From an uncultured Mycoplasmatota bacterium (GTDB lineage: Bacteria; Bacillota_I; Bacilli_A; RF39; UBA660): a stretch of 58,031 nucleotides of DNA. Under the pieces are notes generated by a model. The model saw only the letters and a list, made by a program, of their open reading frames with translations, made no database searches and was not told the origin of the DNA. The position numbers were made by a program, and so were the translations under genes. The DNA lies in NCBI GenBank assembly GCA_948467605.1, contig CAOKET010000007.1, positions 1 through 58,031 on the forward strand, written 5' to 3'. Position 1 is the stretch's first letter, and each line of letters begins with the position of its first letter. This document shows, in pieces, positions 22,956 to 32,793 of the stretch.

Positions 22956-23912
22956 ATGAATAAGAAGATATACAATTATTTTGTTATAATTATTTTACTT
23001 TTTATATGCTTTGAAATGTTAACTAATGCTAATCTTATAATAATTGCAGTACAGAATGCTTATAATATTTGGGCATATAGTGTTTTCCCATCTCTTTTTC
23101 CTTTTTTTGTAATATCAAGTATATTAATTGGGCTTAATTTTCCAAGAGTTATTGGCGAAGTAACTAAGCCAATTATGAATAAATTATTTAAGATAAAAAG
23201 TGATACTGCTTTTATATTTATTATGAGTTTGTTATCTGGTAGTCCTAGTAATGCTAAATATACAAAAGAGTTATATTTAAATGGTAGTATTACTTTGGAA
23301 GATGCGAATAAGATATTAATATTTACTCACTTTTCTAGCCCATTATTTATATTAGGTACGATTACATCTTTTTTGGATAATAAAGAGGTTGGATTTTTTA
23401 TACTAGTCATTCATTATTTAACTAATGTAATTATGGGAATAATAATTAGAAATTATAATCCTAGTTGTGATCAAAATAAAGGTATTTCACTAAAAAAAGT
23501 GATTTATGAGGCAAGTAATACTACTGATAATATTAGTTCTATTGTAACTAAATCAATATTTAATTCTATTAATACTATTATAATGATATTAGGTGTAATA
23601 AGTATTTCTACTGTTATGATAACTATAATTAATAGTAATTTTAATTTGAGTAAGTTAACTGAGTGTATAATAAGTGGCTTAATTGAAATGACTAATGGTC
23701 TTAGAACTTTAATGAGTTTAGATATATCTCTTAAATTAAAAACCGCCATATCGATGTTTTTTATATCGTTTGGCGGTCTATCAGTACATTTACAAGTTAT
23801 TTCAATTATAAATGATACTAAAATTAAATATAAATCTTTCTTTATTGCAAGAATTATACATGCTTCAATTGCAACACTCTTATCTTATATTTTATTTGAT
23901 ATTTTTATCTAA
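22956..23912 (+). CDS. ylbJ: Sporulation integral membrane protein YlbJ
   Basis: Membrane protein of 318 residues with about eight helices, required for normal spore cortex or coat in Bacillus. Family stretches: VFPSLFPFFVISSILIGLNF near residue 40, LLSGSPSNAKYTKEL, and FTHFSSPLFILGTI. The start is ATG (MNKKIYNY) preceded by GAGATGATACT; the longer frame would run through the promoter region. The stop overlaps the convergent prepilin gene by 8 nt. Confidence 0.88.
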   Translation: MNKKIYNYFVIIILLFICFEMLTNANLIIIAVQNAYNIWAYSVFPSLFPFFVISSILIGLNFPRVIGEVTKPIMNKLFKIKSDTAFIFIMSLLSGSPSNAKYTKELYLNGSITLEDANKILIFTHFSSPLFILGTITSFLDNKEVGFFILVIHYLTNVIMGIIIRNYNPSCDQNKGISLKKVIYEASNTTDNISSIVTKSIFNSINTIIMILGVISISTVMITIINSNFNLSKLTECIISGLIEMTNGLRTLMSLDISLKLKTAISMFFISFGGLSVHLQVISIINDTKIKYKSFFIARIIHASIATLLSYILFDIFI

Positions 23913-24819
23913 TTGTATATGGATTTGATATATTTCCATTACCAGATACATATATTACATTTGATTTAAGTTCAATAGTTGGTTTTATCAATGAACTATA
24001 TTTGTTATAATCTTTATTTCCATTTGTAGTTATACCTGTATTGTCATTTGAATCAATAAGCCAAAATTCATCTGTACCTTTTATATTGTTTGGCAAACTA
24101 GAATATTCGGTATTCATAAGTAGTGATAAACTAGATTCTTTAATTAAATCTTTAGATGATTCTGATACATCATACATGTACCAATATTGCATACTAGTAA
24201 GGACATAACTTGAAGTATAAGAACCATTTTGTCCAAATACACTGTTTCCAATATTATCATTTAATAATAATTTTATACTTCCATCTTTATTTATACCTAT
24301 TATTCTCCATAATTGATTATTTAGACTTACATAGTTATTATCAGTATTCATATAATAACTTTTAGAATTGGAATCATATATAATATTTGTATTATCACAA
24401 TAGTTTTTAGGTGTATCAATGAAATCTCTTGATATTGTTAAATCTGAATTTTCATAATAAACTTCTATATATTTTTCTATATTTATATTTTTGTTATTTG
24501 TAGGATCTATTAGATTTGATTCTTTTAATAAATTAGCATCTACTAGGTCTTTTAATTTTATATAAATTTTGCTACAATCGTTGTCATTTAAAACTCTTAC
24601 AGGTAGATGATTAAATTCTCTTCCTACTACATAATTTTCATAGTTATCATTTAAATATAATCTAACTGCTTGTTTTATTTCTGTTATTAAAACATCATAT
24701 TGTTCATCTCTATTGCTTTTTACAATAGAGTATGCACTCGTTACAACTATTGCTGCTATTACTGACATAACTATAATCACAGCAAGTAATTCTACTAAAG
24801 TAAATCCTTTATTTTTCAT
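23905..24819 (-). CDS. Prepilin-like secreted protein
   Basis: 304 residues starting with the class III/type IV prepilin signal KGFTLVELLAVIIVMSVIAAIVVTSAY (cleavage after G5, E at +5), so it is exported and held in the membrane by its N-terminal helix. The C-terminal half contains a WRIIGINKDGSIKLLL module that I have seen associated with surface proteins of uncultured Bacilli; its role is unknown. The start overlaps rnfB by 11 nt, so it is in the rnf transcript. No pilin assembly genes are in the window. Confidence 0.85.
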   Translation of the reverse strand: MKNKGFTLVELLAVIIVMSVIAAIVVTSAYSIVKSNRDEQYDVLITEIKQAVRLYLNDNYENYVVGREFNHLPVRVLNDNDCSKIYIKLKDLVDANLLKESNLIDPTNNKNINIEKYIEVYYENSDLTISRDFIDTPKNYCDNTNIIYDSNSKSYYMNTDNNYVSLNNQLWRIIGINKDGSIKLLLNDNIGNSVFGQNGSYTSSYVLTSMQYWYMYDVSESSKDLIKESSLSLLMNTEYSSLPNNIKGTDEFWLIDSNDNTGITTNGNKDYNKYSSLIKPTIELKSNVIYVSGNGNISNPYTIR

Positions 24820-25069
24820 AAAAAAACTCCTTTATTATTTCTTGATATTTTTCTTTTGATAGTGGCCTACATTTTTTTAGTAAAGTTTTGTCTTTGATTG
24901 CATTATTTGCCATTCCTTTACAACTTCCAAAACCACAGGCATTACAATTATATCCTGGTAGCATTTTTTCTATTTTTTCTATATTTATATTGCTTGAGTC
25001 ATTTGAAATTAACATTATTGTAATTCCTGATATAAAACCCAAAGTTGTCAAAATTAAAATACCTATCAT
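24809..25069 (-). CDS. rnfB: Minimal RnfB: TM anchor plus one Fe-S site
   Basis: Only 86 residues, against roughly 190-330 for usual RnfB. Residues 2-21 form the membrane anchor; C42-x2-C45-x4-C50-x16-C67 is the N-terminal 4Fe-4S site typical of RnfB (LPGYNCNACGFGSC). The two ferredoxin-type 4Fe-4S motifs that normally follow are missing; the stop is clean and is followed by an overlapping gene, so it does not look like a recent frameshift. A good RBS (AGAGGAG) is present. Expected role: pass electrons from ferredoxin to the membrane subunits. Confidence 0.83.
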   Translation of the reverse strand: MIGILILTTLGFISGITIMLISNDSSNINIEKIEKMLPGYNCNACGFGSCKGMANNAIKDKTLLKKCRPLSKEKYQEIIKEFFYEK

Positions 25070-25121
25070 ATCTTTATCTCCTCTATTATAACATAATTTT
25101 AAATTAATTATAAAGTTTTAC

Positions 25122-25241
25122 TTACTTATTCTTATTTAAACAACTATTACATTTATCACATTTAGTGCATTTATTATTGTTTTTATTTGTAGTAAATATT
25201 AATACTATAAATAAAACTATTATAATCAAGAATGCTATCAT
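25122..25241 (-). CDS. 39-residue membrane peptide with CxxCxxCxxC
   Basis: Starts in an ATGA overlap with rnfA and stops 52 nt before rnfB. Residues 2-17 are a membrane helix; residues 25-34 read CTKCDKCNSC, four cysteines at exact two-residue spacing, and the tail is basic. The shape resembles the small Cys-rich proteins found beside FeoB. Placed inside the rnf operon next to a shortened RnfB, it could bind a metal or Fe-S cluster and serve the complex; this is inference. Confidence 0.75.
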   Translation of the reverse strand: MIAFLIIIVLFIVLIFTTNKNNNKCTKCDKCNSCLNKNK

Positions 25242-25804
25242 ATACTAAAATTCATAAATATCATAGATGTTATACCTGCAATGATGAATGCTACTGGATA
25301 ACCTTTAAAACAACTTGGAACATTTTTATTTACTTTTTCTATAATGCTTGAAAATATATATAAAACTAACATAAAACCTATTGATGATGATATAGTAAAT
25401 ACTATCATTTGAATAAAATTATAATTATTTGATATATTTAATAGAACAGTTCCCATAACAGCACAGTTTGTAGTGGTAAGTGGTAAGTATATTCCTAATG
25501 ATTTATAAATTGAATTGAATCTTTTTTTCATAATTATTTCTATTATTTGAACTAAGGTTGCAATTAAAAGAATTGTTATTATTGTTTTTAAATAAGTAGT
25601 ATTTGTGTTTACTAATAAATATTTGTATATAAAATATATTAAAATACTTGATATTAGATTTACAATTAATACACATATTCCTATTCCAAGAGCATTTTTT
25701 CTACTATTAGTACTTCCTACTAATGGACATAATCCTAAGTTTTTACTCAATATTATATTTTGTGCGAAAATACTAACTATTATAATTTTTATTAAATCAC
25801 TCAT
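25238..25804 (-). CDS. rnfA: Rnf complex subunit RnfA
   Basis: 188-residue membrane subunit with six helices. It has the paired features of RnfA/RnfE: NIILSKNLGLCPLVG near the start and LPLTTTNCAVMG in the middle, each with the conserved cysteine that binds the intramembrane Fe-S cluster shared with RnfE. Overlaps rnfE by 8 nt and the Cys-rich peptide gene by 4 nt. Confidence 0.94.
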   Translation of the reverse strand: MSDLIKIIIVSIFAQNIILSKNLGLCPLVGSTNSRKNALGIGICVLIVNLISSILIYFIYKYLLVNTNTTYLKTIITILLIATLVQIIEIIMKKRFNSIYKSLGIYLPLTTTNCAVMGTVLLNISNNYNFIQMIVFTISSSIGFMLVLYIFSSIIEKVNKNVPSCFKGYPVAFIIAGITSMIFMNFSI

Positions 25805-26420
25805 TTTTAGTTTTCTCCTTTACTTTGTTAAATATTGCAATTATTATTCCTAATATTATGAATCCACCTGCAGATATTTGAAATAAATTTATTGGAAAAT
25901 ATGTTGAGTTTGGTACTATTCTATAAATCATTCTTGGTAAGTTTAAGATTTCACTTGTTTTATCTATTAATGTAATTGTATTATTGCCTAAAAACTCTCT
26001 TATTAGCCCAATAAACGAAATTACTAGTAAGTACCCTATTCCAATAGTTAAAGCGTCTATTATGCTTTTAAAAACTGTATTTTTGCTTGCATAAGATATT
26101 GCTCTTCCAAATATTACACAGTTTACTGTTATTAGTGATAAATATAGTCCAATTGAATTATATAAATCTGGTATAAATTTATTTACTAGTATTTCAATTA
26201 CTGTAACTAAGGTTGCTATTATCAATATGTATGATGGAATAATTATGTTTTCTGGTATTAATTTTCTTATTAATGAAATTATTGTGTTTGATAGTAAAAG
26301 TACAACTAAAACACATATTCCCATTAAATATGCTGCCTCAAAATTATTACTTACTGCTAAAATTGGGCATAATCCTAGACATAAACTTAATACTATATTA
26401 TTTTTAAATATATTTTTCAT
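25797..26420 (-). CDS. rnfE: Rnf complex subunit RnfE
   Basis: 207-residue membrane subunit, homologous to RnfA, with NNIVLSLCLGLCPILAVSNN and LSLITVNCVIFGRA. The conserved cysteines that hold the shared Fe-S cluster with RnfA are visible. A strong RBS (AGGAGG) lies inside the preceding 33-residue ORF, whose stop overlaps its start. Confidence 0.94.
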   Translation of the reverse strand: MKNIFKNNIVLSLCLGLCPILAVSNNFEAAYLMGICVLVVLLLSNTIISLIRKLIPENIIIPSYILIIATLVTVIEILVNKFIPDLYNSIGLYLSLITVNCVIFGRAISYASKNTVFKSIIDALTIGIGYLLVISFIGLIREFLGNNTITLIDKTSEILNLPRMIYRIVPNSTYFPINLFQISAGGFIILGIIIAIFNKVKEKTKNE

Positions 26421-30884: not shown

Positions 30885-30913
30885 AAAGAAAAGAAGATTA
30901 TTTATCTTCTTTT
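30885..30913 (-). terminator. Terminator of the repeat-rich membrane protein gene
   Basis: AAAAGAAGAT / ATCTTCTTTT, a perfect 10-bp stem with a 5-nt loop; the gene's stop codon is in the loop. Confidence 0.75.
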
Positions 30914-32793
30914 ACTCTTGATTCATCTGTCAATTTCCATCCAGAAAGTTCTTTTTCTGTTGACCATGTTGCTTCTATTTTTTTATCAGTTTGAGTATAT
31001 CCTGCTGGTAATTTTGTTACCCAGTCAGTATATTTATATTCTGTTGTTTCCCCTACTTTTTCTTTTTTACCAGTTTTAGTCCATCCTTCTTTAGTTAAAT
31101 CAGATGTTGACCATATTTTTTCTGTTTTATCTTTAGTTTCAGTAAATTTTTCATTTACTTCTTTTTTGTCAGTTTGAGTATATCCTGCTGGTAATTCTTT
31201 TACCCAGTCAGTATATTTATATTCTCCTGCTTTTACTAATTTTTTATTACCAGTTTTAGTCCATCCTTTTTTTGTTAAATCTTCTATTGAGTATTGTGTT
31301 TTAATTTCAGTTCTATATCCTATTGTTTTTTCCTCTCTTGTTGTTTTAGCAGTTTGAGTATATCCTGCTGGTAATTTTTTTACCCAGTCAATATAATCAT
31401 ATTTTGCATCTTGAACTAACTTTTTGTTATTAGTTTTAGTCCATCCTTTTTTTGTTAAATCCTCTGTTGAGTATTTATATTCAACACTTACTTTTTCATC
31501 TATTTTAGTATATCCTGCTGGTAAACTTGTTACCCAATCAGTTTCTATAGAATTACTAGATACTAATTTACTCTTTCCTGTTGCAACCCAAGATCCACCT
31601 GGATGTTTAGTTGACCATGTTGTTTCAGTAGTTGTTGTTTGTGTTGGTGCGTTAGGAGTACATATAGTATAATTATAAGTTGTTACTTGTTTTTGTATTG
31701 TTTTAGGTTTTTTTGTACGAGTTTGTACTATATATTTATATACTATTTGAGATTGTGGACAGCTACTCTTGTTACATACTCCTGTTTGAATTGTATAACC
31801 ATTACTTACAGTTCTACTTGTATCAGTTGCTGTTGTTGGTCTTGGAGTAGTTGATTGGAATGAACTTGATGTTGTCCATGGACCATATTCATAACCATCG
31901 TTTACAGTTATTGTCTTAGTACTTGATGAACAACTTGCTCCTGATGGACAACTTGATTGATTGTATTTAGTTGTACAACTAGGTGCTGATGGTTTTGTTA
32001 TTGTTACAGGCATTGCATATTCATATGTATATACGTTATTAGTTATTCTACCTTTATATAAAGTTGTAGTCTTTTTGTATTCATTTTCGTATATAGCATC
32101 TGATATTTTCTTTTGACCTTTATAATAATCTACTTTATTAATTATCTCATAAGGAACTCGTTCTGATTTTGAATATTCATATTCATATGTATCCTCTGAT
32201 ACTTTTATTTTACCTTTGTAATAAACTACTGGTTTTTCAACTATATATTCTTCTTTTGTAGTTTTACTATATTCATACTTATATAAATCTGTTGTAACTA
32301 ATTTTCTACCTTTAAATAGTTCTCTTTCAAATTTATATTCTAGTACTGATACAACTGTCTCACATTTTCCGTCTACACATAGGTCATGACAACCTAAATA
32401 TACGATAATGTAATCAGTTTGACCTTTACAACTTAAAGTAACTTTAAGTTCATATTCATCATTTTCTAATTTTGTTACTTGAACATATGATTTTTCAGTA
32501 TCACAATATTCACCATTCTTATCTGTAAATGGTAGTAGTAATTTCATATCTAACATTTCTTTTAATGTTAATTTATGTTTTTCTCCTACTTCTTTTGGTA
32601 ATCTTTGAACTGTATAATAGTCCTCTGCTACCTCTTTCATCATCATTATATTATTATTAAATATAGCATCGTAGAATGGTTTTGTATTCTTTGATGGATA
32701 TAACCATAATAATAAGAATATAAATAATGCTATAAATAATAGTTTAAGAATTATATTTCTTAATAATCCCCCGTTATTATTTTCTGTATACAT
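30898..32793 (-). CDS. Membrane-anchored protein with C-terminal repeats
   Basis: 631 residues: one membrane helix near the N-terminus (about residues 12-27), a small globular part with cysteines (CDTEKSYVQV ... LSCKGQTDYIIVYLGCHDLC), a Thr/Ser/Tyr-rich middle, and from about residue 425 at least four imperfect repeats of 45-65 residues marked by DLTKKGWTKT ... YTDWVKELPAGYTQT. Low-complexity Lys/Thr/Glu content suggests a surface protein made of small domains. It has its own promoter and terminator. Family not recognised; no LPXTG motif is present. Confidence 0.85.
   Translation of the reverse strand: MYTENNNGGLLRNIILKLLFIALFIFLLLWLYPSKNTKPFYDAIFNNNIMMMKEVAEDYYTVQRLPKEVGEKHKLTLKEMLDMKLLLPFTDKNGEYCDTEKSYVQVTKLENDEYELKVTLSCKGQTDYIIVYLGCHDLCVDGKCETVVSVLEYKFERELFKGRKLVTTDLYKYEYSKTTKEEYIVEKPVVYYKGKIKVSEDTYEYEYSKSERVPYEIINKVDYYKGQKKISDAIYENEYKKTTTLYKGRITNNVYTYEYAMPVTITKPSAPSCTTKYNQSSCPSGASCSSSTKTITVNDGYEYGPWTTSSSFQSTTPRPTTATDTSRTVSNGYTIQTGVCNKSSCPQSQIVYKYIVQTRTKKPKTIQKQVTTYNYTICTPNAPTQTTTTETTWSTKHPGGSWVATGKSKLVSSNSIETDWVTSLPAGYTKIDEKVSVEYKYSTEDLTKKGWTKTNNKKLVQDAKYDYIDWVKKLPAGYTQTAKTTREEKTIGYRTEIKTQYSIEDLTKKGWTKTGNKKLVKAGEYKYTDWVKELPAGYTQTDKKEVNEKFTETKDKTEKIWSTSDLTKEGWTKTGKKEKVGETTEYKYTDWVTKLPAGYTQTDKKIEATWSTEKELSGWKLTDESRVKEDK
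30950..31560 (-). repeat. Tandem repeats coding the C-terminal domains
   Basis: DNA encoding four LPAGYT-containing units and the GWTKT segments between them. Copies are close enough in DNA (for example TTACCCAGTCAGTATATTTA recurs) to recombine, so copy number may vary between strains. Confidence 0.75.

Follow-up and report, generated by a model that had tools for sequence, protein, structure and literature searches.

A small cysteine-rich membrane protein encoded beside rnfA in Bacilli, a candidate Fe-S accessory protein of the Rnf complex

Described accessory proteins and the rnf locus of the window

The role of RseC in Rnf systems is disputed, and we know of no described mechanism by which the intramembrane [2Fe-2S] cluster of Rnf is inserted. 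RseC is needed for Rsx/Rnf function and is encoded beside rnf in Bacteroidota-type loci. In E. coli, RseC was shown to assemble an O2-sensitive Fe-S cluster on its CX2CX5C patch, function requires at least two of the patch cysteines, and the protein interacts with RsxB and RsxD (PMC11729352). In C. ljungdahlii, deletion of rseC abolishes autotrophy, and RseC was read as a regulator (PMC9124969). For the sister pump, NQR, the maturation factor NqrM is apparently required for the insertion of the intramembrane [2Fe-2S] cluster, and in described Rnf complexes the C-terminal domain of RnfB accepts electrons from ferredoxin (PMC12174285).

In the present study, an rnf operon was analysed in a stretch of 58,031 nucleotides (the window) from a 1.38-Mb genome of 44 contigs (Table 1). 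The initial annotation had marked an overlooked 39-residue Cys-rich membrane peptide in this operon, coupled to rnfA by an ATGA overlap and located before a shortened rnfB, and each of these points was confirmed: the gene is real, conserved and tied to Rnf. Its product, MIAFLIIIVLFIVLIFTTNKNNNKCTKCDKCNSCLNKNK, starts at the ATG at 25241 on the minus strand, and this ATG overlaps the TGA stop codon of rnfA; rnfB follows after a gap of 52 nt and has its own AGAGGAG. The AlphaFold2 model consists of a single helix, with pLDDT of about 92 to 81, followed by an unstructured tail. Because the basic residues come after the helix, the protein is expected to be oriented N-out/C-in, with a cytosolic Cys patch. 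The four evenly spaced cysteines described earlier are present in the window peptide, but family-wide only three are invariant and their spacing varies.

Table 1. Features of the rnf operon in the window
Feature	Position	Strand	Basis or remark
Small Cys-rich membrane protein gene, 39 aa	25122..25241	minus	ORF read and conserved in relatives
TM helix, residues 3-22 of the small protein	25176..25235	minus	AlphaFold2 model
Cys patch C25-x2-C28-x2-C31-x2-C34 of the small protein	25140..25169	minus	three of four positions family-wide
rnfA, 188 aa, PF02508	25238..25804	minus	ATGA overlap with small gene
rnfB, short, 86 aa: TM helix and one [4Fe-4S] domain (PF04060)	24809..25069	minus	
Shine-Dalgarno-like AGAGGAGA before rnfB	25077..25084	minus	sequence
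rnfE, 207 aa, PF02508, without Cys tail	25797..26420	minus	
33-aa TM ORF, probably the freed RnfG N-terminal helix	26417..26518	minus	kept in most loci examined in the family of the window genome
RnfD-RnfG fusion, PF03116 and FMN_bind PF04205	26518..27921	minus	
rnfC, 421 aa	27918..29183	minus	

Several other features of the locus were observed. RnfG appears to be split and rearranged, with its FMN-binding domain fused to the C-terminus of RnfD and a free TM peptide (28-37 aa) resembling its N-terminal helix just before rnfE, a layout that recurs through most loci examined in the family of the window genome. A prepilin-like gene (KGFTLVELLAV) follows rnfB at 23905-24819, and the minus strand at 30898-32793 encodes a probable surface protein of 631 aa with an N-terminal TM segment and WVxxLPAGYTQT-like repeats.

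Conservation and genomic distribution of the small gene

A single RnfA sequence used as the query for related loci gave no match; an RnfA alignment worked and was applied as the anchor to 60 relatives, 386 genomes of the family of the window genome (f1), 395 genomes of the class and 80 named loci. Most of the genomes are MAGs. The rnfA-rnfB junction was inspected in the fetched loci, and 217 distinct loci were scored. The initial annotation had proposed searching this junction in relatives and had made its case depend on conservation of the ORF and its cysteines. Such a search found an ORF of 32-82 aa, with a TM segment and then a Cys patch, at 91 of 131 distinct loci with a short RnfB (a count that includes three hand corrections of automatic calls), and the three cysteines are kept. 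The ORF was also present wherever RnfB is of the tandem-FeS type (four loci, 183-192 aa), and at none of the 40 loci with a long RnfB. During hand curation, L079 and L251 were removed as false positives and L019 and L258 were added as false negatives. In 89 of 98 scored ORFs the start was offset by -4 to +1 nt relative to the rnfA stop (-4 in 32, -1 in 31, 0 in 8 and +1 in 18), and the commonest offsets to rnfB were -4 (35) and -1 nt (15); the window departs from its family in having a gap in place of the latter overlap. Six changes on the RnfA tree, built from 178 loci, suffice to account for the presence of the ORF. Moreover, pS was 0.47 against a pN of 0.19 for pairs within genera or families, and the small gene is under purifying selection.

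Within the family f1, the small gene lies beside rnfA in 53 of the 56 genomes that have rnfA; the f1 profile matches 52 of them, and the remaining one (G151, L142) was recognised by eye. The three without the gene are G139, G143 and G152, the last of which (L281) has rnfA, rnfE and rnfDG, lacks the small ORF and yielded no rnfB, and may be an incomplete assembly. No full-length match to the f1 profile was found in about 330 f1 genomes without rnfA, where the matches were partial, being either TM-only pieces of longer ORFs or fragments that cover the Cys patch incompletely. Class-wide, the gene was found in 187 of 212 rnf-positive genomes and in 4 of 183 rnf-negative genomes, counts that are uncorrected for kinship; the class profile alone gave 181 of the 212, and six f1 genomes were added through the f1 profile or by eye. 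Some rnf-positive genomes have no detectable form of the protein.

The families without the ORF in the operon (f3, f5, f22 and part of f16) encode the small protein elsewhere in the genome; linked or not, the protein thus accompanies Rnf. These unlinked copies (L320-L339) recur in housekeeping contexts, with gene names read from the sequences: beside aspS and a dCMP-deaminase-like gene, or between phosphoglucomutase-like and uracil-DNA-glycosylase-like genes, and one copy (L323) adjoins a heavy-metal ATPase-like gene. In the fully read rnf operons lacking the slot ORF, no alternative small Cys-rich TM ORF was found. The presence of unlinked copies in genomes without the operon ORF suits a factor acting in trans.

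All members have a single TM helix, a run of basic residues and three cysteines (CxxC-xn-C) in common. The f1 peptides are 32-46 aa long and in the alignment typically show Y-x-KKN followed by CxxCxxC, and the forms of other Bacilli families have 50-82 aa with N-K-K-T-P-x-P-x-G-C-E and, further on, CxxC-x4-C. Residues P30, C40, C43 and C48 (numbered as in the first sequence) do not vary among 25 class sequences, nor in a 26-sequence alignment that includes unlinked copies. The f1 and class forms gave an hhalign value of 90%, mainly from the TM part; judging from this TM-weighted match, the shared slot and the common layout, the short f1 forms are probably orthologous to the longer ones. Pfam and NCBIfam scans returned sub-threshold matches only, and neither database has a model covering this family of many genomes. 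On the sequence evidence, the small protein represents a widespread, undescribed family that is almost confined to Bacilli having Rnf.

RnfB length, RnfE tails and RseC

The RnfB of the window matched PF04060 only and lacks the C-terminal ferredoxin domain. Its profile aligned to residues 7-88 of the 333-aa RnfB of A. woodii and likewise to the start of the C. tetanomorphum and A. vinelandii proteins, so that the window protein consists of the TM helix and the first, flexible cluster domain. Foldseek with its model returned weak matches to corrinoid Fe-S proteins only, and the sequence search placed the protein on RnfB. In many Bacilli the RnfB that serves Rnf is no more than a helix with one cluster; a literature search of CC-licensed papers found no mention of a short RnfB or of the small ORF. 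Tandem FeS domains (LP..NC..CG..GC) were seen in the RnfB, 183-192 aa, of some genomes of the family f8 (L219, L231, L241 and L243). In G086 (L137, L289), 2 kb separate the small ORF from rnfB, and a prepilin-like gene similar to that of the window stands between them; a loss of rnfB in this genome was considered and rejected, since rnfB is found behind that gene.

The Cys patch is not peculiar to the free protein. Where an operon has a long RnfB and no small ORF, the last helix of RnfE is often followed by a C-terminal Cys patch (GCGSCPMAASC, GCENCPMAKSC, SCEGCPNASSC and GCGCCAMAKFC are examples). Such C-termini (L047, L058, L059, L062, L075, L097, L102 and L340) were found in Clostridia, Synergistota, a Pseudodesulfovibrio and one Bacilli genus, and no description of them was found in the literature searched. 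In g206, a Bacilli genus of which G521 was examined, RnfB is long, no match to the small protein was obtained and RnfE carries GCSGCPNVHICKKEVC. Alignments with the solved RnfE chains 7zc6, 9eri and 8ahx stop at the last helix or slightly beyond, and the 7zc6 and 9eri chains are too short to hold the tail. In Bacteroidota-type loci, rseC adjoins rnf and encodes SACAGCHAAGFC-like patches. Among the named loci, RseC occurred in 20 and the RnfE tail in 15, never together in one locus, and the named loci with the small protein had neither. A further 38 named loci had neither RseC nor the Cys tail within the DNA examined, although a few of them carry the small ORF; RseC may therefore be encoded elsewhere or not be needed there. 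RseC scored over the cut-off in none of 60 Bacilli relatives and was detected in the E. coli, Bacteroides and Thermotoga controls.

These data bear on the earlier suggestion that the peptide replaces part of RnfB, an idea that is now weakened. Equally short-RnfB operons exist without the peptide (the gene then usually lies elsewhere), two f1 genomes (L152 and L163) lost it with no corresponding change in RnfB, and Rnf with a full-length RnfB often has a like patch on RnfE, or RseC. On these observations, the Cys patch goes with Rnf and not with the shortening of RnfB. The RnfA tree holds too few independent pairs to correlate the small gene with RnfB length.

Candidate roles and comparison with known systems

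The reading that we prefer, and to which we give about an even chance, is that the small protein is an Rnf-dedicated Fe or Fe-S accessory protein, most likely maturing the cluster of RnfA and RnfE. Its single TM helix would anchor, close to RnfA/RnfE, a short tail on the cytosolic side whose cysteines number three (four in the window peptide), and this membrane-anchored patch plausibly binds iron or Fe-S. The tail would most likely hold iron or a labile Fe-S cluster at the cytosolic face and serve to insert or maintain the [2Fe-2S] cluster that RnfA and RnfE share within the membrane, a role like the one proposed for NqrM in Na+-NQR and the one that RseC may have in other Rnf systems. The position beside rnfA and the coupling to it argue for this role, as do the co-occurrence with rnf in f1 and in the class, the unlinked copies where the operon lacks the gene, the pS and pN values, and the invariant CxxC...C after the TM helix and basic residues. 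The absence of RseC above the cut-off from the Bacilli relatives, the mutual exclusion of RnfE tail and RseC in the named loci and the absence there of both where the small ORF is present are also consistent with it, together with the Fe-S cluster of RseC (PMC11729352) and the [2Fe-2S] role of NqrM (PMC12174285). On the other hand, homology to NqrM or RseC was not detected, the orthology of f1 and class forms rests on position and layout, and some rnf-positive genomes, as well as the 38 named loci described above, do not fit easily.

The tight coupling to rnfA and rnfB would also suit a stoichiometric subunit. Such a subunit could carry electrons, a permanent Fe-S cluster relaying them from ferredoxin or the short RnfB to RnfA/RnfE and offsetting the missing RnfB domain; the location between the two genes, often coupled to both, and the restriction of the free gene within operons to those with a short or tandem-FeS RnfB point in this direction. 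We consider it rather unlikely, however, as full-length RnfB coexists with a like RnfE tail or with RseC, L152 and L163 keep a short RnfB after losing the gene, the gene is unlinked in many genomes, and a tail of 10-20 residues has variable Cys spacing and no predicted fold. An unlikely role is that of a structural or docking subunit, whose helix would pack on RnfA/RnfE and whose Cys tail (Zn, Fe or a disulfide) would position the flexible RnfB domain. Translational coupling to both genes and the cofactor-free extra subunit RnfH in one Rnf structure (PMC12174285) favour it, but a mere scaffold would not usually keep three invariant cysteines, and unlinked copies are again difficult to accommodate. 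A redox or metal sensor or a thiol-disulfide protein controlling rather than building Rnf is suggested by the CxxC motifs, by the lowered rnf transcription after rseC deletion in C. ljungdahlii (PMC9124969) and by the copy beside the heavy-metal ATPase-like gene; the strict tie to rnf and the lack of any DNA-binding or catalytic part make it very improbable. Finally, the ORF is short, AT-rich and of low complexity, as a chance ORF without function might be, but the conserved slot, start and stop overlaps, cysteines, purifying selection and co-occurrence with rnf refute this explanation and leave it practically no weight.

FeoB_associated (PF12669), the best sub-threshold Pfam match, likewise has a single TM segment and then a Cys-rich tail; however, all members scanned scored below the gathering cut-off, none exceeding 27 bits (23.9 bits for the best member, 15 bits for the window ORF), the search of f1 genomes gave no match over the cut-off, and the small gene adjoins rnfA or lies in housekeeping loci without a recognised feoB. 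No match to PF04060/Fer4 was found in the small ORF. NqrM (DUF539, PF04400) shares one TM helix, a basic juxtamembrane stretch and a Cys-rich tail, and is dedicated to NQR as the small protein is to Rnf. Unlike NqrM, the small protein has no GSCGG motif, and its gene is linked to rnfA and not to nqr/apbE. Where NqrM combines one TM helix with four conserved cysteines, the small protein has the one helix and three invariant cysteines, with a fourth in some families only. No PF04400 match over 22 bits was obtained in the window genome, and PF04400 was not among the families listed for the 25 class members. Although hhalign gave 82-84% for the two families, shuffled soluble columns reached the score in 4/100, 7/100 and 16/200 trials, and the case for homology to NqrM did not clearly stand up to this control.

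RseC resembles the small protein in being a membrane protein with a three-Cys patch, cytosolic in RseC and expected to be so in the small protein, but it has about 140 aa and two TM helices with the CX2CX5C patch before them, whereas the small protein has one TM helix with the patch after it. The spacing in the small family ranges from CxxC-x2-C to CxxC-x5-C, mostly CxxC-x4-C or CxxC-x2-C, and no PF04246 match over the cut-off was obtained. The tests run place the small protein outside PF04400, PF04246 and PF12669; it may share function with NqrM and RseC without shared ancestry. The RnfE tail is a further likeness within the same complex, with CxxC-x5-C right after a TM helix (CGSCPMAASC, compared with CHDCPMNRRC in the small protein of G001), the difference being that it is part of RnfE whereas the small protein is free.

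In conclusion, a micro-protein that tracks Rnf class-wide, and whose Cys patch elsewhere appears fused to RnfE, provides a concrete and testable factor. It is possible, and we propose it tentatively, that Rnf broadly needs a membrane-anchored cytosolic CxxC-xn-C Fe-S patch in three interchangeable forms, namely the RseC N-terminus, the RnfE C-terminal tail and the free micro-protein of Bacilli, and that NqrM provides the same for NQR.
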